Assembly (NCBI RefSeq): GCF_000147335.1
Contig: NC_014501.1
Span: 372,001 to 436,000, forward strand
Direction: 5' to 3'
DNA: 64,000 nucleotides
From: Gloeothece verrucosa PCC 7822
Lineage (GTDB): Bacteria > Cyanobacteriota > Cyanobacteriia > Cyanobacteriales > Microcystaceae
Positions 16,119 through 33,547 of this stretch are shown piece by piece. The position numbers were made by a program, and so were the translations under genes. Under the pieces are notes generated by a model. It was given only the letters and a program-made list of their open reading frames with translations. It ran no database searches and was not told the origin of the DNA. The number at the start of each line of letters is the position of its first letter. Position 1 is the first letter of the stretch.

Positions 16119-16685
16119 TTATAAAGTCAACCATTGAAACATATCATTAGCCGATAACTGCCAATCTTCTAATACTTTTAAAACCGGTAAAATTTCCTCA
16201 TCAGATTTAATCTCAGGTAATTGATCGGGTTTAAAAATCATTACCGATTCATCTTCTGTATCAATTAACCATCCTAGCTGAGTTCCTTGTTTCAGAGAAA
16301 AAATAATTTTTTTCATAACTTTATTAGCGGATTGTTCAGGTGATAAAATTTCAATGATCCAATCCGGATAAATTTCAAATTTATTGAGTATTCTACCTTC
16401 AGAATTTTTCGGGATTCTTTCCCAAGTAAATACGGCAATATCTGGCACAATTGAACGTCCTCCAAAAGTACACCGCAATTCGGGTAAAGCATAAACTAAT
16501 TTTTTCGATTTCCCTCGCCCATTAATAGCCGCTACTAACTCACCTTGTAAGCTACTGTGTTCTCCTTGAGGCATAGGTTTTTGATAAATTTCTCCGTCAA
16601 AATATTCACTAGCTGGTTTAGTTTCTGGAAGGGTTAAAAATTCGGCTAAAGTTAATTTTTGTGTCAAGTGATTGACAATCGTCAT
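16119..16685 (-). CDS. Uma2-family (DUF820) putative endonuclease
   Basis: Uma2 proteins have a PD-(D/E)xK restriction-endonuclease-like fold and are highly multiplied in cyanobacteria; their role is not established. In this 188-residue copy the family pattern is clear: EFLTLPETKPASEYFDGEIY, then PDIAVFTWERIP, then PDWIIEILSPEQSANKVMKKI with the catalytic-like Asp and Glu, followed by GTQLGWLIDTEDESVMIF. It is arranged in tandem with a second Uma2 gene 21 bp upstream on the same strand, but the two proteins are quite divergent, so this is not a recent duplication. Confidence 0.85.
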   Translation of the reverse strand: MTIVNHLTQKLTLAEFLTLPETKPASEYFDGEIYQKPMPQGEHSSLQGELVAAINGRGKSKKLVYALPELRCTFGGRSIVPDIAVFTWERIPKNSEGRILNKFEIYPDWIIEILSPEQSANKVMKKIIFSLKQGTQLGWLIDTEDESVMIFKPDQLPEIKSDEEILPVLKVLEDWQLSANDMFQWLTL

Positions 16686-16706
16686 AATTACCTCTATTTA
16701 AAAACC

Positions 16707-17357
16707 TTATTTATTTTCGTTTAACCAATCCTGCTCAAACTGCCGCAAGGCTAGACTAGAACGATTATTCCAAGCCAGTTCTACATATTTAGGCAAAAGA
16801 TTTTTGACATCAATATTATTAAAGATTAAACTTGCTTGACTATTTTGATATCGATCACCCTCCAAAAGATAAATTAATAATTCTCCACGACGATAAATCC
16901 ACAACTCAGGGATCGCTATCGGTAAATAATCTTCCACTCGAGTTTTTGAAGTTAAGTCTACTTCTATCGCTAAATCTGGAGGAGGATCGACAGTCAAATC
17001 AATCCTATCTTTACCTAAAATAGCTTGATAATTATTAATATAAAAACAAGTATCTGGTTCAACTCCGGCTTGCTCAAATTTTTTAAGCGTAATAGGATCG
17101 AAACAATCCCAATCTTGATTTTGATAGCGTAAAAGAATTTTCACTAAATCTCTTAAAGCGTCGATTCTTTTTCCATGATTCTGTAGAGGTGACATCAGTA
17201 AAATAACACCAGTTTTAGCATTAAAATAAATTTTCGGAAAAGTTTTATCCTGACGAATTTTCAGGAGTTGTTCATAATCTTCCCAGGTTTGATCATGTAA
17301 AATGACTTCAGTTCCCGGAGACAGACTAAGGGTATTCGGGCTAACGGTTACAAACAT
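16707..17357 (-). CDS. Uma2-family (DUF820) putative endonuclease
   Basis: This 216-residue protein has the same PD-(D/E)xK-like domain as its neighbour. Landmarks are YFNAKTGVILLMSPLQNHGKRI, CFDPITLKKFEQAGVEPDTCFYI and DLTVDPPPDLAIEVDLTSKT, the last being the Asp...Glu-x-Asp core. IPELWIYRRGELLIYLL follows. The N-terminal 40 residues are longer than in the downstream copy. It starts at an ATG at 17357 and is divergent from the rseP-type gene, 147 bp away. Confidence 0.85.
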   Translation of the reverse strand: MFVTVSPNTLSLSPGTEVILHDQTWEDYEQLLKIRQDKTFPKIYFNAKTGVILLMSPLQNHGKRIDALRDLVKILLRYQNQDWDCFDPITLKKFEQAGVEPDTCFYINNYQAILGKDRIDLTVDPPPDLAIEVDLTSKTRVEDYLPIAIPELWIYRRGELLIYLLEGDRYQNSQASLIFNNIDVKNLLPKYVELAWNNRSSLALRQFEQDWLNENK

Positions 17358-20595: not shown

Positions 20596-21981
20596 TTAGT
20601 TTTTCTGGATGACATAACACAATTTTCCTACTCGTGTTTGTTTTGATTCCATAGCTTTAAGCATTACAGCTTTTAACTCTGACAAAAAATTTTTTAATTT
20701 ATTAGTTTTAGACCCGTCTTGATTACTTGCTTCAGTGTTCCAAGTTGTCCACCAATTAGGCTCTTGAAATTGATAAGGAATTAAATTGGCTTGAATAAAA
20801 TATGTGCCAGATTCTAGTTTTTTGGCATCAATTTCTGAGGTCATATTCATCATATTAGCTTCTTTATTTAATATTGTAATAGCAAAAATATCGGCTGTTA
20901 AATTAACAGATTTAACAGGAGTAAAATCATTTTGACTTTTATCAAAAATTTCAACAATGGGATCTAGGGTAAATATATTTCCTTCAGAAGCAAGTGGTAG
21001 AGTGTAAGGCAGAGGATAGTAAGAAGCTTGGTTATCGATACTATTTTTATTACTATTTTCTAGGCGTTCGTCAACTCCCAATAGTTCGACGGTTTCGGGA
21101 TCGACCTTGATTCTGTTCTTTCTCTGATTTCCTGTCACCCACATGGTCTTTTGTCGCAGGAGTCCATTGCCTCGCCTAGGAGAATTTGAGCTAATAGAGA
21201 GTAATGAAGGTTGGCTAACAATCTGGTGATAGAAAATCATGAACTGTTCCTCTGTAAATAGGTTTTTGTCTAGATTTTTGAGTTGTTCAAAATAATTAAC
21301 TACGTCAGGATATTTCCCCAGAATAATGAGATAAAAAGGACGATATTGCTCGGGTTTAACCTTAGTTGTATCATACCGAAATTTGCCGCCAGCTATTCCG
21401 ACATCATAAATCCAGCCTTGAAACTGACTTCTAATGGCTAAAATTCCTACGGCATAATCTCCTTCTAAATATTGTTTTAATTGGTCTGTAACCTTCGCAA
21501 TATCAGACTCTTGTTGATACAAATCGGTAATTAAAATCGAGATTTTGTCCTTATTTTTCTGTCCAGTAATAGCAGCATTAATAGCCGTATCAATGCGAGT
21601 GTCTTCAAAATTTTTATCCGTCAGTTGATAAAAGCCGGGCAATTGTGCTTTCAAAAAATTTGATCGGTCATTAAGGGGCCTCGGTTCTATGCCAAAGCTG
21701 TAATAATTTCTATTTTTGAGTGCAGTCATGGCGTTAGCCGCACTATCAACCAATTGTATAGTCTGAACATAGTTACTGTTGGGAACAGTGACATACCCCT
21801 CCATTGAGGGTGTCGTATCAACGTAAATATCAATAGTGGGTGACTTTGACTTCTGGTTATCAATGTTAATTTTTGGAGGTTCGCAGTTAAGGGAGATAGG
21901 CGACTGGGAAGGACATCCTGTAGCTGTCAGTGCGATAAAAATAGTAATAGCCGCTAAGGGTTTGTATGTCATTATTTTCAA
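20596..21981 (-). CDS. Lipoprotein with von Willebrand A-like domain
   Basis: I infer an envelope lipoprotein. The N-terminus (MTYKPLAAITIFIALTATGC, from the second ATG at 21972) is a signal peptide ending at a possible lipidated Cys at ~23 of the longer form. A vWA-like fold follows: TIDIYVDTTPSMEGYV fits the DxTxS MIDAS strand with Thr for the first Ser, and KISILITDLYQQESD fits the distal MIDAS Asp strand. The ~200 C-terminal residues are unrecognised and beta-rich. It has 461 residues. It is divergent from the membrane/tubulin-like/actin-like operon with only 61 bp between start codons, so shared regulation is likely. Related vWA genes accompany FtsZ-like genes elsewhere (Makarova and Koonin, 2010). 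Confidence 0.75.
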   Translation of the reverse strand: MKIMTYKPLAAITIFIALTATGCPSQSPISLNCEPPKINIDNQKSKSPTIDIYVDTTPSMEGYVTVPNSNYVQTIQLVDSAANAMTALKNRNYYSFGIEPRPLNDRSNFLKAQLPGFYQLTDKNFEDTRIDTAINAAITGQKNKDKISILITDLYQQESDIAKVTDQLKQYLEGDYAVGILAIRSQFQGWIYDVGIAGGKFRYDTTKVKPEQYRPFYLIILGKYPDVVNYFEQLKNLDKNLFTEEQFMIFYHQIVSQPSLLSISSNSPRRGNGLLRQKTMWVTGNQRKNRIKVDPETVELLGVDERLENSNKNSIDNQASYYPLPYTLPLASEGNIFTLDPIVEIFDKSQNDFTPVKSVNLTADIFAITILNKEANMMNMTSEIDAKKLESGTYFIQANLIPYQFQEPNWWTTWNTEASNQDGSKTNKLKNFLSELKAVMLKAMESKQTRVGKLCYVIQKN

Positions 21982-22042
21982 CTTTCCTGGGAAAAAGTTA
22001 CAGATCGCGTTAAAAATAGATTATCGCTTTTCGAGACTGCAA

Positions 22043-22513
22043 ATGACTATTATTCGCCTGTTATTTGTCTTGTTAATTGGGTTTGCTTTTATGTTTGTTG
22101 TTCAGCCTTCCTTTTTTACCGGTGGTACGATCACACTAGAGGATGTTACTCCTGAAGATTGGGTTGGGGGTCAATACAGATTCGGTGCAGGGATTGTATT
22201 TGTGGCTTCGAGTCTAGGGAGTTTGATCTGGTATGGACTGGCAAGCTACTATAATGACCGAGATAACAGACTCTCAGTTCAAGGGTTCAGAATAATTTGG
22301 GCTAGTTTATCCCTGCTTCCTTTTGCTAGTATTCTATTATCTCTTTTTCTCTTTCAGGAAAGCCGTCAGGCTATTCCCTATTTAGCCTTTTTCTATGTGC
22401 TAGATGCTTTGTGGCTATTTTGGGTGGCTACCGCTATAAGTACACCAGAATCACTAAAATATGGGGTTGTTCCTGGCTCTTATTTCCTGCGTCACCTACC
22501 GTTTTTAAAGTAA
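22043..22513 (+). CDS. Small four-helix membrane protein of the tubulin-like locus
   Basis: The 156-residue protein has four hydrophobic segments: residues ~3-20 (IIRLLFVLLIGFAFMFVV), ~50-68 (AGIVFVASSLGSLIWYGLA), ~88-108 and ~112-130. I do not recognise the family. I chose the ATG at 22043; the frame is open upstream, but that part overlaps the divergent lipoprotein gene. The stop overlaps the start of the tubulin-like gene as TAATG, so the two proteins are translationally coupled and probably made in fixed ratio. I infer that it anchors or recruits the cytoplasmic NTPases. Confidence 0.7.
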   Translation: MTIIRLLFVLLIGFAFMFVVQPSFFTGGTITLEDVTPEDWVGGQYRFGAGIVFVASSLGSLIWYGLASYYNDRDNRLSVQGFRIIWASLSLLPFASILLSLFLFQESRQAIPYLAFFYVLDALWLFWVATAISTPESLKYGVVPGSYFLRHLPFLK

Positions 22514-23985
22514 TGGCACTGTATCTGATTGCAATTGGCGGAACCGGAGCAAAATGTGTGGAAGCCCTCGTGCATCTGGCCGGTGCAGGGTTGTGTGGAG
22601 AAGATTTCATCTGGATTGTTTTTGTTGATCAAGATGAAGCTAATGGCAATGTCACTCGTGCTAGGACAGTGATCGAAGTTTACCGGCAGTGCCGCGCATT
22701 AGTCCAAAATACTTGGATGACGACTCAGATTGAGGTAATCGGGGATGTGTGGGCCCCGGTAAGCGGAGCAAACCCAACCCTGAGTGATTTTTTTAATTAC
22801 CATACCTACAGGCAAAGCAATCCTAAACTGGGACATCTTTTTGAAGTTCTCTATGGAGAAGCCGAACGGGAAATTTCCCTAGAGGACGGATTTCGAGGTC
22901 GGCCTGCGATTGGTTCAGCCGTGATGAGTCATTTGCAATTAGCTGCCCAAGAACCTTGGCGATCACTGATAGAGAAGATTGAGAAAGATCCACAAGCTAA
23001 GGTATTTCTGTGCGGTTCGGTTTTTGGCGGGACGGGGGCTTCCGGATTGCCGACGATCGCCCGCTTAATTGCTAACCAGTTTGAGGGCTTGCCCATCGGC
23101 GGTTTGTTGATGCTTCCTTATTTTGAATTTCCGGTGGAGCGAAGTCTCGACGAAGAAGTCTATGCTAAACCCGAGGAGTTTTTGCTTACGGCAGAAGTCG
23201 CTCTGCGCTACTATAGAACTCAAGCGCACAATTCCTCAGATAATAGGGAAATAACGAATTATCTGGGATTTAGTAGTATTTACCTTTTGGGAACCCCCAA
23301 ATTATCCCCAGTCAGCGATCGCTTTAAGTTAGGGAGAGCAATGCAGGAAAACCGACAGCACTTTCTGGAATTGTTTGGTGCTTTGGCCATTCGTCATTTT
23401 CAGGTTCATACCCCAACCAATCAAGTCCTCCTCCTCAAGGCTAATGATCCGTTAGAAGTGACTTGGAATGATCTCCCAGAAAGCTCACAGGTACAAGAAA
23501 ATCTGATTGGTGCAACGCGCTTTGCTTTTGCCTGGACAGCTAAAATTGTTCCCGAACTCAGAGAGGGACTCCTGGACCAAGAAAACATGGCTAGATCTTC
23601 TCCTTGGGTAGAACATTTTTATAAAGTCCCTAAGTTTTTTGCTAACCCTAATCTGCCTGAACTATCGAATAGTGGACAACAGCAGGCACTCTCAGCAATT
23701 ACGACTTGGTGTAAGACTTATTTGCAATGGCTGAAAGCTTTACACGAAGATGAGGTCTATAAGATTCGACTGTTTAATACTCAAGCTTTTGGAGATTTTG
23801 AAAATCATGCTAATGGGCAAAACGGAAATTTTGCCGCTTTAGTCGATGAATCCAGTAGAATTGAGAGAAAGCGGCTAGATACGGTGCAGAGGTTGGTTAA
23901 TCGACTTGATCGTAGAGGAATAGAAGAACCGAATCAAGGCACGGTGGGACTAGCAAAGGCTCTGTACAGACTTTGCCAAAAATAA
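22513..23985 (+). CDS. Tubulin/FtsZ-like GTPase domain protein
   Basis: The 490-residue protein starts at the ATG overlapping the previous stop; frame upstream of it is not real. The first strand and loop are MALYLIAIGGTGAKCVEAL (GGTGAK at 9-14), matching the nucleotide-binding start of the tubulin superfamily. VFLCGSVFGGTGASGLPTI (FGGTGASG at ~171-178) is the equivalent of the GGGTGTG tubulin signature. WIVFVDQDEANGN follows the first motif as an acidic strand end. This pattern fits the Pfam Tubulin_2-type family (PF13809) rather than cell-division FtsZ. The C-terminal 200 residues are helical. GTP binding is inferred, not shown. Confidence 0.78.
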   Translation: MALYLIAIGGTGAKCVEALVHLAGAGLCGEDFIWIVFVDQDEANGNVTRARTVIEVYRQCRALVQNTWMTTQIEVIGDVWAPVSGANPTLSDFFNYHTYRQSNPKLGHLFEVLYGEAEREISLEDGFRGRPAIGSAVMSHLQLAAQEPWRSLIEKIEKDPQAKVFLCGSVFGGTGASGLPTIARLIANQFEGLPIGGLLMLPYFEFPVERSLDEEVYAKPEEFLLTAEVALRYYRTQAHNSSDNREITNYLGFSSIYLLGTPKLSPVSDRFKLGRAMQENRQHFLELFGALAIRHFQVHTPTNQVLLLKANDPLEVTWNDLPESSQVQENLIGATRFAFAWTAKIVPELREGLLDQENMARSSPWVEHFYKVPKFFANPNLPELSNSGQQQALSAITTWCKTYLQWLKALHEDEVYKIRLFNTQAFGDFENHANGQNGNFAALVDESSRIERKRLDTVQRLVNRLDRRGIEEPNQGTVGLAKALYRLCQK

Positions 23986-23996
23986 ACAGGTAGCTC

Positions 23997-26900
23997 ATGA
24001 GCAATTTTTTCTTTCTGCCCCAGTTAAAAGATGATTCTCAGGTTAAACCGGGTAATCCTGGGGAGTGGAGTGCCCAATCTTTCGATACCTTACAGCAAGT
24101 GGCGGCTAGTTTGAATACGGAAAATCCCAGGCAGAAAAACCGTGTTAGTTCTATCCCCCACATCTGGGCGCGTCCTCTGTTAGTGGAAATGGCCTTACAT
24201 GATACCCAGCATCCCCTGCGCCAAGAAATTACAGAACAATGGCAGGGAATGTTAGCGGCGATCGCTTTTGCTGAGATGCGGGGGTTTCCCTTAACAGCAG
24301 AGTTGATTGAACTCGAACAAGAACAAGATCCCTTTGCTCGCTCCCTGCGCCAACTCCTCCCTTCGGATGCTAACGCGGTGTACCAGCTAGAGGGAAAAAA
24401 TCCTTGGTACGATGTTTATATTTTGCTCTGGCAGAACAATCCGGTTGGAATGAGTTCTCCAAGTACCCTAGTTTGTCCCTCTGAAGGGGGAATCTGGGCC
24501 GGACTTCCTTGGTTTGTGGACGGCAAGCTACAATCTCCTCTGGCTCGCCCTTTTTTGGCGACCGAGGAAAAAGAATTATTATGGTATTGGTTAGAAAAAC
24601 TGGATCAGAGCTTGCCTCAGTATGGGGGCACTCGACAAGGAATTAATAAGATTTCTCTATTGCTGCAAGAGTTCAAAAACCGCCTGCAATTATATTCATT
24701 TCAGAAGGTAGATTTTCAGTTGAGTAAGAAGTCGAAATCTTTGGGGCAAGTGCTAAACCAAGGCGCGTTACAATCTCTCAAACCGATTCGGTTGGCAGAA
24801 CAACCTCCTAGCGTGCGCTTAATTCCCAGTCCCGAAAAAGCCGACACAAAGGAGTTGCTGATTATTCCTGATTCGGCTGAGTTACTAACTAGGCGTAATA
24901 TAGCCAAGATTGCAGAGCAATGGGGGGTCAAAGAACAGCAAATCCGCATCTGTAAAGATGTTCACTTAGCTATTCTCAATGGGTTGAATCATAAGCAACG
25001 GAAGAACCGTTTTGAAAGTTGGGAAAATGAATATAAGTTGATCGAGGCAAAAGATTTATTTTTACCTGAATTCTATTTTATAACTCAGGAACGGGCACTG
25101 CCAGGAAGCTTGCTTCCCGTCGGTAGTAATGGGCTGATTTATCAAAATAATGAGAAAAAAATTACGCCTTTGCTACCGATTAATCCTATTCTTCTCGATT
25201 ACCTTACTTCTGAAGAGTTAGCTAATCGGATTGATTTTGAATCTATTGATAGCGGAAGTGTTCGGGTAAGTCTGCGCTTACCTCTTTCTGGGTTGACTAT
25301 GGGAAATCCCCCTCAAGATTACGAAATCCAGAAAGATTATGCTCTTAAGCCCCAAAATGCCTTAGTTGATGTTCCAATTCTAGAGATTTGGCCGAATTTT
25401 CAAGCTCAGGGATGGCAAGAGTATTATGCCTTTTATTATGATCGCAATTGTCCTACTTTTAGGGTTCAGTTTCCCAGTCAAATTGTAGAAGTTTCAGAAA
25501 GATTTTCTGATTCTAGCTTTCTAGGTTCCTTTCAAACTGTCCAGTTAAACCAATTTCCTAGTTTTATTTTTTGCCAAGATGAACAAGCAAAAAATTTAGG
25601 TTTAATTTTATTGTCTAGTTCTCCTCAAGTGAGTAAAATAGATCCCGTTAACTGGATAGTGGGTGTTGATTTTGGGACTTCATTTACTAATGTTTACATT
25701 TATTGCAAAATTGATCGGGATAGAGGCTTTTCTGAAAAATTGATAGTTATGAGTCCTCCCTTAAATCTTCAGGTTACTAAAGACGCAGGAGAGGGTTTTA
25801 TTCCATTAATTGAGTATTTCATTACAGACAGCCCAAAAATCGTTCAGCTACCTTTGGCTAGTATTTTGACCACAAGGGGAAGCTCTAAAGAAGACCGCGA
25901 AAAAAACCGAAAAATTTTTGATGGTCGTATATATAGAACGGATACTGATATATTTAAAATTTCAACGGAAACAACTTGGTATAAGACCTCTTTAAAGTGG
26001 TCAACAAGTCATCCTAACTTTACAACGCTTTTTTTAAAGCAATTAGCTTTACATATTACAGCTAAAGCTGTTCTAAAAAATGTTAGAAGTATTGACTGGT
26101 GTATTTCCTATCCCTCAGCATTCTCTGATGATGATAAAGGCAATTATGCAGGGATATGGGAAACCATCATCTCAGATTTAAATCAGTCCAAGATGGTAAT
26201 TCAACATAACTTTCTCCGTCAAGATGAAAATATAGGAGATTATCTGACTGAAAGTTTAGCTGTGGCTCAATATTTTGTGGATAACCAAGGTCAACAAGGT
26301 CAACTCATTAATAGTGTAATTATTGATATCGGGGGTGGCACTTCAGATATTTCAATATGGGAAGATTATCGACTGGTTTATCAATGTTCAGTTCAGTTAG
26401 CTGGCAATCACTTATTCACCAGGTTTTTATCTCAGCGTTCAGATGTGTTACAGCTACTATTTGAGGAAGAAATATCTTCAACAAACTTAAATTCTTCAAC
26501 AAACTTAAATTATTTAGATTTACTATTAGCTCAAGAAGGAGATAGTGCCTTATCTGAACGACGAGTTTTACCTGAAATTATCAAAAATGAACAATTCCAA
26601 AAAGTTATCCAGCTAACGGCTTTAGGAATTGGCGGCTTGTATTATTATGTAGGGATTTTACTTAAAGTTCTTAGCGAAAGAGAAATAAAGAAAAGCCAGG
26701 AAATTCCTACTATCTATCTAGGGGGAAATGGCTCTCGTCTATTCAATTGGCTAGAGGATTCAGGGAAATTTAACAGAGAGTCTTTAATTAACAAAATACT
26801 GCTCGAAATTTTACAACAATCTACAAATTTTACTGGAGGATTGGGAAATATACACTTGAGCAATAATCCTAAAGATGAGGTTGCTCTGGGATTAGTTTTG

Positions 26901-27290
26901 GCTTATGATAAGCCTTTGCGAGGACTGAAAAATGCGGAAAAATATCCATACATTGCTGGAGAAGCTTACAAAATAAATGATGCTGAGTATAACTGGAATT
27001 CTGATTTTCCACCAGACAATAAAATTGAAAGCTGTGACCTTCCTGATTTAGAAAAATTACCCGAATTTCTCTTAAATTTTTATAATATTTGGACAAAATT
27101 AACTAAAAAAGAACCTTTAATTTTTAACAGGATTGATATTAACTCTAATTCTGAGTTTTGGAAAAATATCAGAAGGTTTATGCGAAATGAATTATTAGCA
27201 ATTGTTAACCGAAGGCGAGAATCTATTCGGTTTGAGCCTCCATTTATTTTGGGTTTAAAAGTCCTATTGCGTGTGCTAAGTGAAAGATAA
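23997..27290 (+). CDS. Large protein with C-terminal actin/Hsp70-like ATPase domain
   Basis: The 1097-residue protein has two halves. Residues 1 to ~540 are an unrecognised region without membrane segments. From ~553 on there is an actin/Hsp70/MreB-type ATPase: phosphate-1 loop GVDFGTSFTNVYI (Asp at 558), phosphate-2 loop VIIDIGGGTSDISIW (Asp at 777) and adenosine motif IYLGGNGSRL (~906-915). All three are in the right order with plausible spacing. The gene starts 11 bp after the tubulin-like gene, so they share an operon. The second half is notably AT-rich. ATP binding is inferred from the motifs; whether it polymerises, like ParM, or acts as a chaperone-like switch is open. Confidence 0.8.
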   Translation: MSNFFFLPQLKDDSQVKPGNPGEWSAQSFDTLQQVAASLNTENPRQKNRVSSIPHIWARPLLVEMALHDTQHPLRQEITEQWQGMLAAIAFAEMRGFPLTAELIELEQEQDPFARSLRQLLPSDANAVYQLEGKNPWYDVYILLWQNNPVGMSSPSTLVCPSEGGIWAGLPWFVDGKLQSPLARPFLATEEKELLWYWLEKLDQSLPQYGGTRQGINKISLLLQEFKNRLQLYSFQKVDFQLSKKSKSLGQVLNQGALQSLKPIRLAEQPPSVRLIPSPEKADTKELLIIPDSAELLTRRNIAKIAEQWGVKEQQIRICKDVHLAILNGLNHKQRKNRFESWENEYKLIEAKDLFLPEFYFITQERALPGSLLPVGSNGLIYQNNEKKITPLLPINPILLDYLTSEELANRIDFESIDSGSVRVSLRLPLSGLTMGNPPQDYEIQKDYALKPQNALVDVPILEIWPNFQAQGWQEYYAFYYDRNCPTFRVQFPSQIVEVSERFSDSSFLGSFQTVQLNQFPSFIFCQDEQAKNLGLILLSSSPQVSKIDPVNWIVGVDFGTSFTNVYIYCKIDRDRGFSEKLIVMSPPLNLQVTKDAGEGFIPLIEYFITDSPKIVQLPLASILTTRGSSKEDREKNRKIFDGRIYRTDTDIFKISTETTWYKTSLKWSTSHPNFTTLFLKQLALHITAKAVLKNVRSIDWCISYPSAFSDDDKGNYAGIWETIISDLNQSKMVIQHNFLRQDENIGDYLTESLAVAQYFVDNQGQQGQLINSVIIDIGGGTSDISIWEDYRLVYQCSVQLAGNHLFTRFLSQRSDVLQLLFEEEISSTNLNSSTNLNYLDLLLAQEGDSALSERRVLPEIIKNEQFQKVIQLTALGIGGLYYYVGILLKVLSEREIKKSQEIPTIYLGGNGSRLFNWLEDSGKFNRESLINKILLEILQQSTNFTGGLGNIHLSNNPKDEVALGLVLAYDKPLRGLKNAEKYPYIAGEAYKINDAEYNWNSDFPPDNKIESCDLPDLEKLPEFLLNFYNIWTKLTKKEPLIFNRIDINSNSEFWKNIRRFMRNELLAIVNRRRESIRFEPPFILGLKVLLRVLSER

Positions 27291-27292
27291 AA

Positions 27293-29158
27293 ATGATGAA
27301 AAATAAAGAGATTAGGAATTTTTTTATTTATCTAGTTTTAGACATGATTACAGTCAGTAGCCTAGTCTATAATCCTTCAATAATTTTAGCTAAATCTTCC
27401 CCTTCAATGCCTTCACCAGAAATGTCTAAACCAGGAGTTAGTTCTCCAAATCTATCGACCAACTGGAAAATTTTTAAGGACGATGAGAATGGGCCTTATA
27501 AAACATTTAAAAAATCCCTAAAAAAATTGATAAATACTATTGAGCAAGAGAAGACTAAACCTCCAGAAATAAAGTTGTTTGAAGATGCTTTTGATGCTAC
27601 AAAAAAATTGCAAGAAGAATATAAAAATTTGGTCAATACTAGAAATAGTAATAATGAATTAAAGCAAATAATTACCAATGAAGAAATACCAATTATTAAC
27701 CAACGATTAAAGGAAATTAACCAAGTGCTTGAGCCAATAAGTTCAGTTGAAAAATTAAGCACTAAGACATCCAATGCAAAGCTTCAAAATATACAGTCTA
27801 ATATTTTTAAACTTGAAAAAAAGGAATCAGACGGCAAATGGGGTACTGATACCAGTAATGCTTACATTATATATTTATTCAAAAAGATGGATTATATTTC
27901 TGAAACTCTTTTTCAAGGAAGTAGTTCTTTAGCGACGATAACCGTTGAGCATCAATCTTCAACAACCCGGCCACCCGAAAAAGCAAATCCACTATTTATA
28001 TATATCCTTATAGGCATCCCTATAGGCATCCCTATAGGCATCTTTATAGGTAGATTTATTAGTAAAACAAAACCTAAAAATGGGGAGCATACCATTTTTG
28101 TAAAAGCATCACCCAAAGTAACCATAATCCCAGGTTTTCAGCACCTCTTAAAAAAGATAACGTGCAAAATTGGGATGCTCTCTAAAAACAATGGTGAAGA
28201 AACCAAAGATATAAGTATTGGTAGTAATGAAACTGTTATTATAAAAAATCAATCTTTACCTGAAAAAATAGAACCTTTAAAGTATAAAGTAGAAACTATA
28301 CAAAGCTCTTTACCTGAAAAAATAGAACCTTTAGAGGGGAAATTAAAATTTAGACAAAATTCATTATCAACAAGGAGGAAACCTGTAAATAAGAAAAGAG
28401 AATATATGCTATCTAAAAATATAAAATCTGTACAAGCTAGACAACATTTAGACTCTCAAAAAATAGAAGCTTTAGAGGAGCAATTAAAATCTGTACAAGC
28501 TAGACAACATTTAGACTCTCAAAAAATAGAAGCTTTAGAGGAGCAATTAAAATCTGTACAAGCTAGACAACATTTAGACTCTCAAAAAATAGAAGCTTTA
28601 GAGGAGCAATTAAAATCTGTACAAGCTAGACAACATTTAGACTCTCAAAAAATAGAAGCTTTAGAGGGCAAAGTCGACTCGAATTTTGAGGGAAAAGATT
28701 TTACTAAAACGTTTGAGACACTTCTTCCTCCTCCTCCTGAGATTAAAATCTCTCCTTCTGCTGACTTGCTTTCTAAATATCAGCAACAAAATTTATCTAA
28801 CTCTGAATATACAACCGTTACACTAACAACAGAAAGTCGTGAAGAATCTTATGGAAAAGCGGGGAAGGGGAAACAGTTTATTTTTGAAAGGAATAATGAA
28901 GGGAAATTTTGGATTGTTACTGATCAGCAGGGACAAAATACTTATTACTGGTTGTTTTTATCATACGATTTAGATATAGAACTTTATAAAGATATAATTA
29001 ATGCCTCGTTTACAAAAACAATAAAGTCGTTATCGGGTAATAAAAATAAATGGACGCTGAAAACACCTGCTAGAGTAAAACCTTATGAAGAGGGGGAGCA
29101 GAAGTGGGAATTAGATACCAAAAACAAAGGCGAAATTGAGTATATACGATTTTATTGA
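27293..29158 (+). CDS. Signal-bearing single-pass membrane protein with coiled-coil repeats
   Basis: The 621-residue protein starts 2 bp after the previous stop. Layout: a hydrophobic signal-like segment (~8-33), a lysine-rich extracytoplasmic helical region to ~228, a transmembrane helix at ~233-254 built from repeated IPIG units, and a basic KTKPK stop-transfer. A cytoplasmic part then carries [12 protein letters not shown] heptads and four 21-residue coiled-coil repeats (~378-458). A beta-rich C-terminal domain (~490-621) contains [20 protein letters not shown] and [10 protein letters not shown]. The coiled coil could bind filaments or the partner ATPases. I do not recognise the family. 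Confidence 0.72.
28009..28050 (+). repeat. 12-bp tandem repeat encoding the transmembrane segment
   Basis: TATAGGCATCCC occurs twice and a third time with its last two bases changed (28009-28044), followed by a half copy. It encodes IPIG units inside the predicted transmembrane helix, so the length of the helix may vary between strains. Confidence 0.85.
28424..28666 (+). repeat. Four near-identical 63-bp tandem repeats encoding a coiled coil
   Basis: The units begin at 28424, 28487, 28550 and 28613. Each complete unit encodes 21 residues (three heptads) starting [19 protein letters not shown]; the last is cut after 18 codons. The copies I compared are the same at DNA level, which suggests recent expansion or gene conversion. 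Two diverged copies of a related LPEKIEPL unit lie just upstream, near 28255 and 28309. Confidence 0.92.
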
Positions 29159-29207
29159 AGCCAAGCACAATATCCAGTAAATTGAGTTAAACTAATAAAC
29201 TTATCAG

Positions 29208-30515
29208 CTAGGTATCAGTATTTTGTAGGTTTTCTTCCTTATCTCTTGGAGTAACAAGATTCTCTTTTGCAAGAGCTAACTCCAAAGACCGGTAGTGATC
29301 TAACTTTCGATTTATGATACCAATCTGGTTAGATAAGTCGATTTCTCTCTGAACATTGTTTTCTAATTGTTTTCCTTTTGGTATTAACTGTAATACATAT
29401 TTAGTAATTAGCAATATTATTACAATAAATATTATCCCAAGTCCAATCTTAATCCCTAATGTTTTATTTATACTCAAAATTAGAACACAAATAAGAATCC
29501 AAATTATCAAAAATGCACTTGCTAGGATGATATTTCGTACACTCTTATTTCTTATTAAAAGTTTTCTTGTTTTAATGTCAACTTGCTGTTGCTCTAATTG
29601 TTTTTTTTCTTTTTCAAGATCTTTTACTTCTTTTTGGTACTTTTCAAAAAGAATATTTACTTTATTTAATTCATAATCCTCTATAGTTTTTCTAATTTCT
29701 GGAAAAATGTGTTTTAGTGTTCTAACAAGTGCAAAAAGCAACACTGACGGTTTTTGAACATCAATTGGCAGCCTTTTATTAGCAAAGGCATTTCTAACTT
29801 GAGGATCGAAGGAAAGCGGAGGAAGCAAATCCTGCCATTCAAGAACGGTTTCTCGTTTCTGCATATCAACATACATTTCTAATTCACTTATAGTTAACTT
29901 GTTAACTAATCTAAGCTCTGGCGGGAAATTGAAGCCGCTTTTTCTAAAACTGTTAGATAATTGATTTATCGTATTCTTAGCCGCATCTTTTGTAATTGCA
30001 TCAGGTTCAACGACTATCACTAATTTATCTGCATCTAAGTTTGTGATAGCAACCTGCATAGTATATGAATATCCGGCTTGGCAATCCAATAAAATATAGT
30101 TAATATTTTGTTCAGATGCCCATTCTTTTAATCCCTTAAAAACTTCGCTTATTCTTTCTAGTTTTTGTGATAAAGATTCATAAGTTGGTAGTTCTTTATT
30201 TTGATATACTTTCCGTGATGCAGCAAAATAAAACTTATCTGTAATCCCAATCGGTAGCTCTTTCGCTTGTGCAGCAACTGCATCAGATTCTTTTAATTGC
30301 AATTCCAAAATTTCCCAAATTCCATTCGCTGCTTTTTCCTTTAATTTTTCTTGAAAAAAATACGAACATCCATTAGTAGTTAAATCACAATCTACTAAAA
30401 GACAAGATTGCTGTATGTCCGTAAGAAGTTGAGTAGTAGCAATAGTGATGGTGGTTTTTCCTGAACCTCCCTTGCCGCTAATAAATGCTATAACTTTAGG
30501 TTCTGAGTTGTTCAT
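29208..30515 (-). CDS. MinD/ParA-like ATPase with C-terminal coiled coil and membrane anchor
   Basis: The 435-residue protein begins with a deviant Walker A (VIAFISGKGGSGKTTITIA, residues ~7-25), then CLLVDCDLTTNGCSYFF (Walker A'-type Asp) and INYILLDCQAGYSYTMQVAI (Walker B). This SIMIBI ATPase domain ends near residue 270. A charged coiled coil (~285-325) leads into two transmembrane helices (~328-350 and ~355-378) and a second coiled coil. MinD and ParA normally lack transmembrane helices, so the permanent anchor is unusual. It is the last gene of a minus-strand operon that converges, with 49 bp between stops, on the coiled-coil protein gene of the tubulin-like operon. Confidence 0.82.
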   Translation of the reverse strand: MNNSEPKVIAFISGKGGSGKTTITIATTQLLTDIQQSCLLVDCDLTTNGCSYFFQEKLKEKAANGIWEILELQLKESDAVAAQAKELPIGITDKFYFAASRKVYQNKELPTYESLSQKLERISEVFKGLKEWASEQNINYILLDCQAGYSYTMQVAITNLDADKLVIVVEPDAITKDAAKNTINQLSNSFRKSGFNFPPELRLVNKLTISELEMYVDMQKRETVLEWQDLLPPLSFDPQVRNAFANKRLPIDVQKPSVLLFALVRTLKHIFPEIRKTIEDYELNKVNILFEKYQKEVKDLEKEKKQLEQQQVDIKTRKLLIRNKSVRNIILASAFLIIWILICVLILSINKTLGIKIGLGIIFIVIILLITKYVLQLIPKGKQLENNVQREIDLSNQIGIINRKLDHYRSLELALAKENLVTPRDKEENLQNTDT

Positions 30516-30543
30516 GATAATAATTGTTATTAATTATTAAGTT

Positions 30544-31179
30544 TTATTTATACAATTTAGTGATATTTATGCCTTGAGCCTGAGTAAAAGTTTTTCGATT
30601 TTTGCGATCGTATCTAAATTTTGTTTTTTTGGGAAAATCTCTCATCATAAATTGGATTTCATCAAGATATTCTTTAAGTTGATCACGGCGTTCGTTTTCC
30701 AATTGCTGCCACCTAAGTTGAGATTTTATAAAAATTATTACGCTGACTATCCTTTCAGATAATCGCTCAATAATCCTATCTAGATTTCTTTGTTTATGGT
30801 AAATAATTTTTTCTCTTTCTATAGCTTCATCAAAAATTATAATCAAATGATCTTCTAGAGCTTGAATATAATTTGTTGTATCATGTTGGTTGCTCAATTC
30901 TCTTATTTTATTTAAAAAATCTTCAATGATTGTTTCTATCAATTTAACATCTTTTATCGTGAGCAAAAAATTATCTTGAAAAATTAATTTAAAATAAAAC
31001 TGTAGTAAACTCTTTCGTGTTTCTAAAAAGGGCTGTTCACTAGCTATTAAATCATAAGCAATATCAAAAAATAAAGGGTGTGGGTATTGATGATTTCTTC
31101 TTATTTTATCAATATTTATGTTATATATTTCATCTAATATTTGTTGGTTTTCAGGATGGTGATTTGATTGTGTTAGCAT
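30544..31179 (-). CDS. Uncharacterised helical protein
   Basis: I do not recognise this 211-residue protein. It is lysine/isoleucine-rich, predicted mostly alpha-helical, and has no signal peptide or membrane segment. Phrases include HPENQQILDEIYNINIDKIR near the N-terminus, FDEAIEREKIIYHKQRN in the middle, and a basic end (KKTKFRYDRKNRKTF). It lies 28 bp upstream of the MinD-like ATPase gene and 59 bp downstream of the membrane coiled-coil gene on the same strand, so it is probably part of the same complex. Confidence 0.6.
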   Translation of the reverse strand: MLTQSNHHPENQQILDEIYNINIDKIRRNHQYPHPLFFDIAYDLIASEQPFLETRKSLLQFYFKLIFQDNFLLTIKDVKLIETIIEDFLNKIRELSNQHDTTNYIQALEDHLIIIFDEAIEREKIIYHKQRNLDRIIERLSERIVSVIIFIKSQLRWQQLENERRDQLKEYLDEIQFMMRDFPKKTKFRYDRKNRKTFTQAQGINITKLYK

Positions 31180-31238
31180 AATTTATTTTTTCCTTACTAC
31201 GCAATTAAATTGTTTACTTTTTTGATTTCTTTCTATTT

Positions 31239-31910
31239 TTATTCTCTCGATTGGTTTTCTATTAATTTCTCATATTGTCTTTGAAGCTCATCAATTTCAT
31301 TTTTGAAAGACTCGACATAGTTTTTAATTTCTTCTTTTTTAGTATCAATGAATTTGTTATTTTCTGAGAGTTTATTTTTCAGTTCTCTCATATCTTGGCC
31401 GATTTCTTTAAAAACTTCGTTAAAAACGTATTTTTTTATAGATTCCTTCAAGAAAAACATATAAACTGAAAGTACAATACCAATACCAGTAAATACTGTT
31501 ACTAAAACACTAAGAACAGTAGCAAAAGTTCCTAGGTTGCCAATCAACTTTCCTACCATATCTTTAGCTTCTTGTTCTCCCTCTTCACGAGCTATTTTTT
31601 GTAGTTCATTTTCAGCTATAACCATATTTTTAGCTTCTTCATGGGCTATTTTTTGTAGTTCCTTTTTATTTTCAGGCTGTTGAAAATATTTCTTAATTTC
31701 CAATTGAAATAAGTCTTTTTTGCCGTCAAAGTATTTTGTAACTATGCGCTCAATAGTAATTTGAATTTTCTCTTCAGATATGGATGATAAAGTAGCAGGA
31801 TTCTGAGACTGAGCGTCAGTAACCCACACAAATAGAATCAATAGCAAAGGAACAATCATCACCATCCCCTGCCAACGCCAAAACCTTTTATTTCCATGAC
31901 AAAGCTTCAT
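31239..31910 (-). CDS. Exported and membrane-anchored coiled-coil protein
   Basis: The 223-residue protein has a signal-peptide-like segment at ~17-33 (MVMIVPLLLILFVWVTDA). A helical extracytoplasmic part contains two related ELQKIA(H/R)EE phrases. A transmembrane helix lies at ~124-150 (FATVLSVLVTVFTGIGIVLSVYMFF) and a charged coiled coil runs to the end. The signal–helix–TM–coiled-coil order copies that of the 621-residue protein in the facing operon, although sequence similarity is not obvious. It is the first gene of the three-gene operon ending in the MinD-like ATPase. Function unknown. Confidence 0.65.
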   Translation of the reverse strand: MKLCHGNKRFWRWQGMVMIVPLLLILFVWVTDAQSQNPATLSSISEEKIQITIERIVTKYFDGKKDLFQLEIKKYFQQPENKKELQKIAHEEAKNMVIAENELQKIAREEGEQEAKDMVGKLIGNLGTFATVLSVLVTVFTGIGIVLSVYMFFLKESIKKYVFNEVFKEIGQDMRELKNKLSENNKFIDTKKEEIKNYVESFKNEIDELQRQYEKLIENQSRE

Positions 31911-32166
31911 TGGAAGTCTCCAATTAAAAAATTTATTTGCTAACAGACACTTGGTTAGGGGGAACAGCTATATAAAACAGGGTCGGTTGATTGAACAGGC
32001 AAAATAGAAAAAACGAGTAGCCTAGAGAAAATTATAGAACAGATTGTCAAAATTTCACCCTAAAAATAGATTTTTTTCAGACTTATGACCCTAGATTGCT
32101 CATTCTAACCAAGTTTCCAGTTATCGCAAGAGCCAAGAAAGTTAACAATTCTTGACATAACAGCCC

Positions 32167-33483
32167 TTAATTTAAATTCCACTTAAAGGCATTATCCCAA
32201 ACATAGTCAATAACTTGTTTAGCTTCATCTAAGGAAAGTGCATAACAAAACCCTTGACTATCAAAACTAATTAAAGGGATTTCTTCTTGATGAGCTAATT
32301 TTCCTCGAATTGCTTGTAAATTTTCTAAGGTTTTGTCAATATTGAAATTAATAGATTTATTGTTTTTTGTCCTCATCCATTCCTCAATCTGTTGATCTAA
32401 CTGCTGAGGAGTTAAGGGAATAGCGCTAGTTAATAAGTGATAATAAACTAAAATCATCTCTTTACATTCTTCTTCTTCTGCCGCATCAATTAAATACTGA
32501 AATACACCCGCTTGACTGGCCATCTTTCTAAAAAATAATGTCTCAGCCACTTTTTTTTGAAATTTTATTTGCTTATTTTTATAATCAGAATACTGTTTAA
32601 AAGCAAAGCCGCCACAAGTTAATACTAAAGAAAACATAGCGATTAAAATCGGCATTATTTCTTTAGTTTGTTCGGGAGTAATTTTAATTTGTTTAATGGG
32701 AGATGAACCCATTGTAACTACAAAAAATACTCCGATAATCAATAATACTTGAGGGATAATTTTATAAATCATTGAAATCGATGCCCCAATAGCCGGAACA
32801 CCAAATAATAACCGATCTTTCCAGGTCATACTCATTTTGATATTAGGAAAGATGAATTCTAAATCATACTTAGAAAGATGCTTGTAAAGATAGACATATA
32901 TTTTATTAAAATCTAATTCAAAATATTTTTCTAAAAACTTTTTTCTTTTTTGGGTAATTCTATCTTCTCTAAATTTAATTAATAAAACTACGGTATCAAA
33001 AGCCGCTACTTGTTTTTTTACCTTTTTAAATAGCTTTTTGACCGTCAATATTTTATAGACATCTCCGCGACCATAACAAACTAGATGTTCAAACTCATTA
33101 AAATCTACTTCGGTTTTAAGTTCAATTAAGGTTTGTTCTTTCAAAGCTTCCTCTAACCTTTCTTGACTAATAGGAATATAATTGGCTTGTTCTAGAATCT
33201 GTTGAAAATCTTCGATTAATTGTCTCTCCATTTGGTTTTTTTGAAGCGTCGACAGATCCCAGATAGAGTCCGGTTCATTCTCAGGGTTAAAGGGAGCAAA
33301 ATTATTTTTTAGTCTTTCTAAAATATGATGCAGCTTAAAATGATAATAAGCTGAAAGAATTTCACAGAATTCTCGAAATTGAGCCGCCTCATTGTCAGTT
33401 AAATGGCCATCAGATAGACATAAATGAATAAGTTCTGTGCGGCTATAGGGAATAAATGCCTCTGTTTGGTGATAGTTGGTCAT
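32167..33483 (-). CDS. DUF3754-like membrane protein
   Basis: The likely start is the ATG at 33483 (MTNYHQTEAFIPYSRTELI), giving 438 residues; an ATG at 33519 would place the first codons next to a tandem repeat. The N-terminal half is soluble. The block IYVYLYKHLSKYDLEFIFPNIKMSMTWKDRL, followed by a hydrophobic pair at ~235-275 and ~290-310, resembles the DUF3754/TMEM143 family. A C-terminal cytoplasmic domain ends with FDSQGFCYALSLDEAKQVIDYVW. The function of the family is unknown. It lies 256 bp upstream (in window order, downstream) of the tubulin-like locus on the same strand as the MinD-like operon, so membership is possible but not supported. Confidence 0.6.
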   Translation of the reverse strand: MTNYHQTEAFIPYSRTELIHLCLSDGHLTDNEAAQFREFCEILSAYYHFKLHHILERLKNNFAPFNPENEPDSIWDLSTLQKNQMERQLIEDFQQILEQANYIPISQERLEEALKEQTLIELKTEVDFNEFEHLVCYGRGDVYKILTVKKLFKKVKKQVAAFDTVVLLIKFREDRITQKRKKFLEKYFELDFNKIYVYLYKHLSKYDLEFIFPNIKMSMTWKDRLLFGVPAIGASISMIYKIIPQVLLIIGVFFVVTMGSSPIKQIKITPEQTKEIMPILIAMFSLVLTCGGFAFKQYSDYKNKQIKFQKKVAETLFFRKMASQAGVFQYLIDAAEEEECKEMILVYYHLLTSAIPLTPQQLDQQIEEWMRTKNNKSINFNIDKTLENLQAIRGKLAHQEEIPLISFDSQGFCYALSLDEAKQVIDYVWDNAFKWNLN

Positions 33484-33507
33484 CTTTAAGGAAGTAGGAG
33501 GTAGAGA

Positions 33508-33547
33508 ACTAATGACCAATGACTAATGACTAATAACTAATGACTAA
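33508..33547. repeat. Short tandem heptanucleotide repeat (STRR type)
   Basis: Between two minus-strand genes the 7-mer ACTAATG and its variants ACCAATG and ACTAATA are repeated about 5.7 times over 40 bp. Such heptamer STRRs are characteristic of cyanobacterial intergenic DNA. They frequently vary in copy number. Confidence 0.85.

Follow-up and report, generated by a model that had tools for sequence, protein, structure and literature searches.

A conserved cyanobacterial gene module that pairs a predicted tubulin-type protein with a predicted actin-type protein and likely membrane-associated partners

In bacteria, the classic pairing of a tubulin homologue with an actin homologue is that of FtsZ with FtsA, which work together at the membrane. 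FtsZl1 proteins are about 1000 amino acids (aa) long, have an extended coiled coil and a helical C-terminus, and are accompanied by vWA and OmpA partners (PMC2875224). Tubulin_2 proteins are set apart in a 2023 study of FtsZ and tubulin evolution (PMC9871819). Among the systems of Kaur et al. (2020) is a class in which GTPases occur together with tubulins and an HSP70 protein; in GAP1-N2 systems, which are based on GAP1 and DO-GTPases, tubulin and HSP70 form non-overlapping themes, found above all in firmicutes and actinobacteria (PMC7159879). Here we analyse a locus of Gloeothece verrucosa PCC 7822 in which predicted tubulin-type and actin-type genes are adjacent. The locus comprises genes A to H, between positions 20596 and 31910 of a 64-kb stretch (the window) of this 7.84-Mb genome.

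The nearest published relatives are in Synechocystis PCC 6803, where Sll0445, Sll0446 and Sll0447 have Tubulin_2, FtsA and DivIC domains, respectively. These proteins are reported to be associated with Slr2015, Slr2018 and photosystem proteins, and insertion mutants are impaired in phototaxis and altered in photosystem II (PSII) fluorescence (PMC9880817). The sll0443-sll0449 operon has a predicted CRP site, as does slr2015-slr2018 (PMC2633013). Genes sll0443-sll0445 appear in a lexA-mutant table with ratios of 3.8 to 5.8, taken here as mutant over wild type (PMC4759255), and a comFB mutant shows deregulation of Sll0445 and Sll0446 (PMC12313861). A previous sequence-only reading of the window had known of no description of this exact set. 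We likewise recognised none of the whole set in the literature searched, which lay outside supplements, bioRxiv and most subscription journals, but the set is not wholly undescribed, as sll0445-sll0447 had already been reported with mutant phenotypes.

The open reading frames (ORFs) and motifs named by that reading were all found in the window where it had placed them. According to the ORF list, the genes fall into two groups, A-B-C-D-E and then a converging minus-strand operon, F-G-H. We assessed the presence of these genes in 292 cyanobacterial genomes and their arrangement in 101 loci (the window, 20 and a further 80), of which 91 remained after removal of near-identical copies; L, G and P numbers below denote loci, genomes and proteins of this survey. 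With unequal E-value thresholds in the genome survey (1e-3 for C, 1e-15 for D), C is found in 21 of 292 genomes and D in 23. All 21 genomes with C also have D, where 1.65 would be expected by chance (P 4.6e-30); in one of them, G111, D sits on a different contig from C. Among the 91 non-redundant loci, A is present in 72, D in 87 and B, judged by position, in 83, and a B profile matches at 87 of the 91, most of which helped to build it. Of the 63 loci with sufficient flank, 62 have D in the neighbourhood of C, 59 have B, 53 have A and 51 have all three; at 58 of them the start of D lies no more than 1 kb beyond C. A, B, C and D also occur together in genome bins named Nitrospirae (L091, L097), Pyrinomonadaceae (L098), Calditrichia (L115, L117), Alphaproteobacteria (L121) and Caldisericia (L124), whose taxon labels need care. 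The tubulin-type and actin-type genes therefore co-occur across genomes and loci, and the A-E group moves as a set across cyanobacteria, but the F-G-H group does not move with it. The composition of this module is well supported, in that its genes, the motifs in them and the joint inheritance of the genes are shown; its two folds and its membrane topology are predicted.

Protein C carries GGTG at residues 9-12 and FGGTGASG at 171-178, and all 38 aligned homologues retain the glycines of these motifs. Its T4 loop, GGTGASG, fits the pattern GGTG[AT].G, with G172, G173, G175, A176 and G178 present in all 38 sequences and the Thr in 37. The predicted structure resembles tubulin, FtsZ and CetZ, which together with the invariant glycines bears out the proposal that C belongs to the tubulin superfamily. 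W318 and D320 are also invariant and lie, by model and alignment, directly before helix 324-354; any role for them, such as that of the T7 catalytic acidic residue, is a guess. Comparison with the Pfam Tubulin_2 model (PF13809) gave a divided result, in that the window's C scores 16.8 bits, below the curated cut-off of 27, but precomputed annotation assigns PF13809 to 106 of 120 listed relatives. Membership of FtsZl1 was considered for C and rejected on architecture (490 aa and no long coiled coil in the model versus about 1000 aa). A separate 1103-aa frame elsewhere in the host genome matches PF13809 at 387 bits.

Protein D carries DFGTS at residues 558-562, DIGGGTSD at 777-784 and GGNGSR at 909-914, and the phosphate 1, phosphate 2 and adenosine motifs of the actin/Hsp70 superfamily are all present. 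Residues D558, G560-S562, D777, G779-D784, G909, G910 and R914 do not vary among the 39 aligned homologues, and residues from about 550 to 973 are modelled as an MreB/FtsA/actin fold, in agreement with the actin/Hsp70-type ATPase that had been proposed. For the tubulin and actin parts, the two outcomes that would have refuted the sequence-only reading, a lack of structural match and a lack of co-occurrence, were thus both looked for and did not arise. Variant forms of D were also seen. Extra copies covering about residues 349-1097 occur near or away from the module (L032, L038; G235:C106, G111:C39), and in G235 one of these shares a contig with a ZorB-like match that has an internal stop, about 4 kb apart. 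At L034 (G042) the gene is interrupted or split, with a TAG within the match and a separate C-terminal piece, and P0218 is a D homologue fused to Trypsin_2 and VMAP-M1.

Protein A has a sequence resembling a metal ion-dependent adhesion site (MIDAS), DTTPSM, at residues 55-60, and the second MIDAS Asp, D153, lies in ITDL; in the A family the motif is mostly DGSGSM or DGTPSM. D55 is invariant in 64 of 64 aligned sequences, and C23, S59, M60 and D153 are found in at least 90%. A profile of the family matched 13 VWA_2 domains of the host genome with probability 92.7 (E 4.3e-7) over 161 columns, with MIDAS positions aligned, and control comparisons with reversed, column-shuffled and unrelated profiles stayed at 0-0.4, apart from the C family, which reached 8.4. 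A profile search of the PDB with A returned one match, at E 0.096. A likely carries a divergent vWA domain, and a lipobox-like motif, by a loose pattern, is found in 53 of 72 A proteins. One profile comparison favours the earlier description of A as a vWA-like lipoprotein, and the Pfam result weighed below does not. The stop codon of B overlaps the start of C, and the window's 156-aa product matches, at E 1.3e-45, a profile made from B sequences at the other loci. B had been described as a membrane protein, and hydropathy indeed predicts several spans, but its start is at 22043 rather than 21836.

The domain at the end of protein E recurs in 150 proteins from 63 of the 91 loci, with up to five per locus, and the proteins listed with it include zinc-ribbon, membrane-anchored and coiled-coil types. 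In 67 of the 91 loci, the same-strand run after C holds a protein other than D with one or two predicted spans. The shared domain may be an adaptor that brings accessory proteins to a scaffold. Two single-pass coiled-coil proteins had been counted in the set; E (27293-29158) belongs to it and the other one does not. Within E, four tandem 63-base units with 99% matching (28422-28671) encode coiled coil and suggest recent expansion.

A tree of 90 C proteins, rooted at its midpoint, splits cleanly into two clades (support 0.92). In clade I, which has 60 loci including the window, A is divergent in all 42 loci that could be judged, 16 lack A and two have it at a distance; a zinc-ribbon protein, by a crude CxxC rule, is in the run at 27. 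In clade II, with 30 loci, A is co-directional in 28 of 28 and absent from two. Stator-like genes are found at 15 of the 90 loci, 14 of them in clade II, where they encode ZorA-like and ZorB-like proteins and an OmpA-type protein adjoins the module. Among five ZorA/ZorB pairs scanned, every ZorB-like protein matches PADLOC ZorB models (best E values: L091, 2.7e-19; L124, 3e-23; L102, 6.9e-9; L112, 2.7e-9). Pfam OmpA is above its cut-off in L091, L098 and L124 and below it in the other two, and MotA_ExbB is just above cut-off in L091 and below it in L098, with no match in the remaining three. PADLOC matches of the ZorA-like proteins are weak (best 1.4e-9) and partly due to coiled coil. The module's ZorB type occurs in 47 of the 292 genomes and in 10 of the 21 with C, where about 3.4 would be expected by proportion. 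In just two of these ten, G014 and G133, is it in the fetched neighbourhood of C, so this ZorB type also exists apart from the module. No Zorya pair is found among the neighbours of the window's copy, and a ZorB query of the host genome, run without a positive control, was null.

This company of genes recalls the membrane-remodelling system that Makarova and Koonin proposed for FtsZl1 operons, a link made by the sequence-only reading. By analogy, C and D would constrict or otherwise shape a membrane, either the plasma membrane or that of the thylakoids. The likely vWA partner and the OmpA-type neighbour of clade II make the link reasonable, and the membrane proteins, the predicted tubulin fold and the PSII fluorescence changes of the Synechocystis mutants (PMC9880817) would fit such a role. 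However, C lacks the architecture of FtsZl1, including its coiled coil, and reviewer 1 of PMC2875224 objected to the topology. We consider a remodelling role of this kind quite improbable.

The sequence-only reading had further suggested that tubulin, actin and MinD/ParA NTPases, all encoded within 8 kb of the window, co-operate as one system. F is a genuine MinD/ParA ATPase (AAA_31, E 9.3e-11) with predicted C-terminal membrane spans; it matches the PADLOC candidate PDC-M28B at E 6.5e-8, and NCBIfam AAA_KGGVGR below cut-off. However, it is encoded on the opposite strand in an operon of its own, and a homologue at E 1e-10 was found in just one of the 292 sampled genomes, the window's own, with up to five candidates scored per genome. 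Among the 101 loci, which are the whole survey made for G, F and G lie beside C in the window alone, and H in the window and one other match; two weak partial matches to H occur in other genomes (E 1.7e-4 and 9.3e-4). We therefore rejected F as a third partner. Because the ParA gene is not conserved beside C in the sampled genomes and loci, co-operation of all three cytomotive folds fails: as a general rule it is already refuted, and we consider it most improbable. Two cytomotive folds belong together here, not three.

To relate the module to the Synechocystis genes, we compared published primers with the surveyed loci. The sll0445 'up' primer matches C exactly at L043, with one mismatch at L044, and with two in the window's C and at several other loci; it therefore marks the C family. 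The sll0446 'up' primer matches D of L044 with two mismatches and has no exact match in five genomes of that genus, and neither 'down' primer matches at two or fewer mismatches. Because the closest matches are there, we place the Synechocystis genes in clade II, and from gene order alone we take sll0443 to correspond, putatively, to A and sll0444 to B.

We tentatively propose, at a little under an even chance, that A to E form a nucleotide-switched scaffold at the inner face of the plasma membrane that is coupled to a sensor at the outer face and serves pili or the cell surface. C, with GTP, and D, with ATP, would assemble together, as FtsZ does with FtsA, and B would anchor them at the membrane. 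A, through its likely vWA domain, would bind an outside partner or a metal and signal through B, and the scaffold would recruit E along with the other proteins that end in the shared domain. In clade II, the Zorya/MotAB-like stator genes may draw on the proton gradient to add force or a signal. The output most consistent with the published data is that the module controls type IV pili and the cell surface, because mutants of the Synechocystis relatives are impaired in phototaxis and pilus proteins are found in the same fractions as the relatives' products.

Several observations weigh against this proposal. The phototaxis data come from clade II relatives, and aligned clade II C proteins are 30-34% identical to the window's C; the photosystem defects in the same mutant study suggest pleiotropy. 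For every member, assembly and any GTPase or ATPase activity are predictions. Foldseek alone finds nothing for the C model at E 0.001 or below (best 1.4e-3), a profile search of solved structures with C gives no match, and the same search with D finds only MreB, at E 0.005. The vWA assignment of A is weak, as the 13 vWA sequences taken singly against the A profile reach probabilities of just 0.9-35 and no Pfam vWA domain is found in any of 64 family members. Only one of the 60 loci in the window's clade has stator genes, and the ZorB type is present in 37 sampled genomes that lack C. Finally, the linkage to MoxR-vWA genes and the patchy spread of C would also fit a role in biological conflict.

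This last alternative is the strongest rival, and we judge it possible though somewhat unlikely. The module would be a tubulin and actin variant of the Kaur et al. (2020) NTPase (nucleoside triphosphatase) systems for anti-phage defence or altruistic death. In such a system, the two NTPases would provide a threshold, and accessory proteins that carry the shared domain would act as effectors. In Phormidium OSCR (L059 = L030), the space between C and a D with an N-terminal extension is occupied by genes for iSTAND (E 1.8e-14), a MoxR-type AAA protein and VWA_CoxE. A like arrangement is found in Westiellopsis (L062), with the iSTAND gene in pieces and just below cut-off (E 1.2e-4), and a Calothrix bin (L095) has genes of this kind upstream of C. 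In Microcystis (L061 = L031), the last gene of the operon is a weak match to DO-GTPase2 (E 0.0024, below cut-off). iSTAND, MoxR, VWA_CoxE, Trypsin_2 and VMAP-M1 (both as in the P0218 fusion of D) and DO-GTPase2 are components of the Kaur et al. systems. The ZorA/ZorB-like pairs of clade II, the patchy distribution and the variable accessory genes with a common domain point the same way. However, MoxR, CoxE-type vWA and iSTAND genes are present at only three of the 91 loci and DO-GTPase2 at one, no effector domain was recognised in the window's copy, PADLOC gives weak matches only in the window, and the published phenotypes of relatives concern motility and photosynthesis. We also considered a hitherto unrecognised trans-envelope machine in which C and D co-polymerize beneath the membrane, a vWA lipoprotein gates from outside, the adaptor domain recruits effectors and one clade is driven by a Zorya/MotAB-type proton motor; used for motility in cyanobacteria, it would have been turned into a conflict system in the MoxR-vWA hybrids. 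This broader scheme seems to us rather unlikely.

Table 1. Coordinates of genes and features in the window.
Feature	Position	Strand	Basis
A: probable lipoprotein; divergent vWA domain likely	20596..21981	-	family alignment, profile comparison, lipobox-like motif
61-base gap between divergent genes A and B; presumed common promoter region	21982..22042	.	sequence
B: 156-aa predicted multi-span membrane protein	22043..22513	+	hydropathy, profile from other loci
C: tubulin-superfamily protein, 490 aa, without long coiled coil	22513..23985	+	
C, T4-type phosphate loop, residues 172-178 GGTGASG	23026..23046	+	alignment
D: 1097 aa; C-terminal half a predicted actin/MreB fold	23997..27290	+	
D, predicted actin-fold ATPase domain, residues about 550-973	25644..26915	+	model range, conserved phosphate and adenosine motifs
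E: 621-aa coiled-coil protein, one predicted span	27293..29158	+	
E, C-terminal domain, about 130-150 aa, common to many operon proteins	28703..29155	+	similarity across loci
F: MinD/ParA type	29208-30515	-	
G: small protein	30544-31179	-	
H: small protein	31239-31910	-	
DUF3754 protein, next after H	32167-33519		

Several further observations concern copies of the module elsewhere. A further A-B-C-D set of the host genome, diverged from the first, lies on a contig of 47.5 kb (L028, G000:C3:28000-47550) that also has a ParA-like ORF by motif and is possibly a plasmid; megablast with this contig matched no plasmid record, in a search from which the host genome's own records may be excluded. C matches five of 72,556 plasmid records, four of them from Picosynechococcus or [Synechococcus] NIES-970 and the fifth, weak at 60%, from Prevotella, and no tblastn match to C was found among 50,697 phage records. 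Bins labelled Chloroflexaceae, Euryarchaeota and Tatlockia (L092, L106, L118) have copies that closely resemble those of cyanobacteria and perhaps lie on mis-binned contigs. At three clade II loci a gene for about 190-200 aa lies between C and D (L041:8685-9245, L042:10800-11363, L043:6857-7462). The products from L041 and L042 cluster together, and presumably all three, like window 16119-17357, resemble Uma2-type proteins. In the Calditrichia bins (L115, L117) the next protein is about 526 aa long, a canonical HSP70 by Pfam in L115, which also has a protein with TonB C-terminal and SH3 domains.

If our proposal is correct, the module is a second, separately conserved tubulin-actin pair, and co-operation of the two folds at membranes could be reused outside cell division. 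To our knowledge, genomes with the module keep their own division genes. The pair is linked with a probable vWA-type lipoprotein and, in clade II, with stator-like genes. The sll0443-sll0449 locus, known for light-directed movement through mutant, expression and co-fractionation data, gains a testable structural hypothesis and is linked to genes predicted to act in conflict.

The module departs from FtsZ-FtsA in the much greater size of D, the distance of C from FtsZ and the presence of a likely vWA partner and of membrane partners. The vWA-FtsZl1 operons share with the module a Tubulin_2-type protein, membrane proteins and a vWA-type partner, which in the module is a likely one, as well as, in the sister clade, an OmpA-type partner. 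They differ in that C has 490 aa without a coiled coil, that the window has no GTPase partner gene, and that the nearly constant actin-fold partner is unmentioned in the parts of the PMC2875224 main text cited here. In the GAP1-N2 systems, too, vWA and membrane proteins accompany proteins of the tubulin and HSP70 types, but GAP1 and DO-GTPases are not in the window, as none of the nine proteins from 20596 to 33519 has a Pfam match to either. Zorya ZorA/ZorB and MotA/MotB stators resemble the ZorA-like and ZorB-like proteins of clade II operons, which are not beside the window's copy. The parts of the published accounts of sll0443-sll0449 cited here do not mention a vWA protein, a small membrane protein or structural models. 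By its primer matches, that operon belongs with clade II, in which all genes are co-directional, whereas the window's copy is of clade I with A divergent. In both, the tubulin-type and actin-type genes are adjacent, and in Synechocystis the third gene, sll0447, is of the DivIC type.

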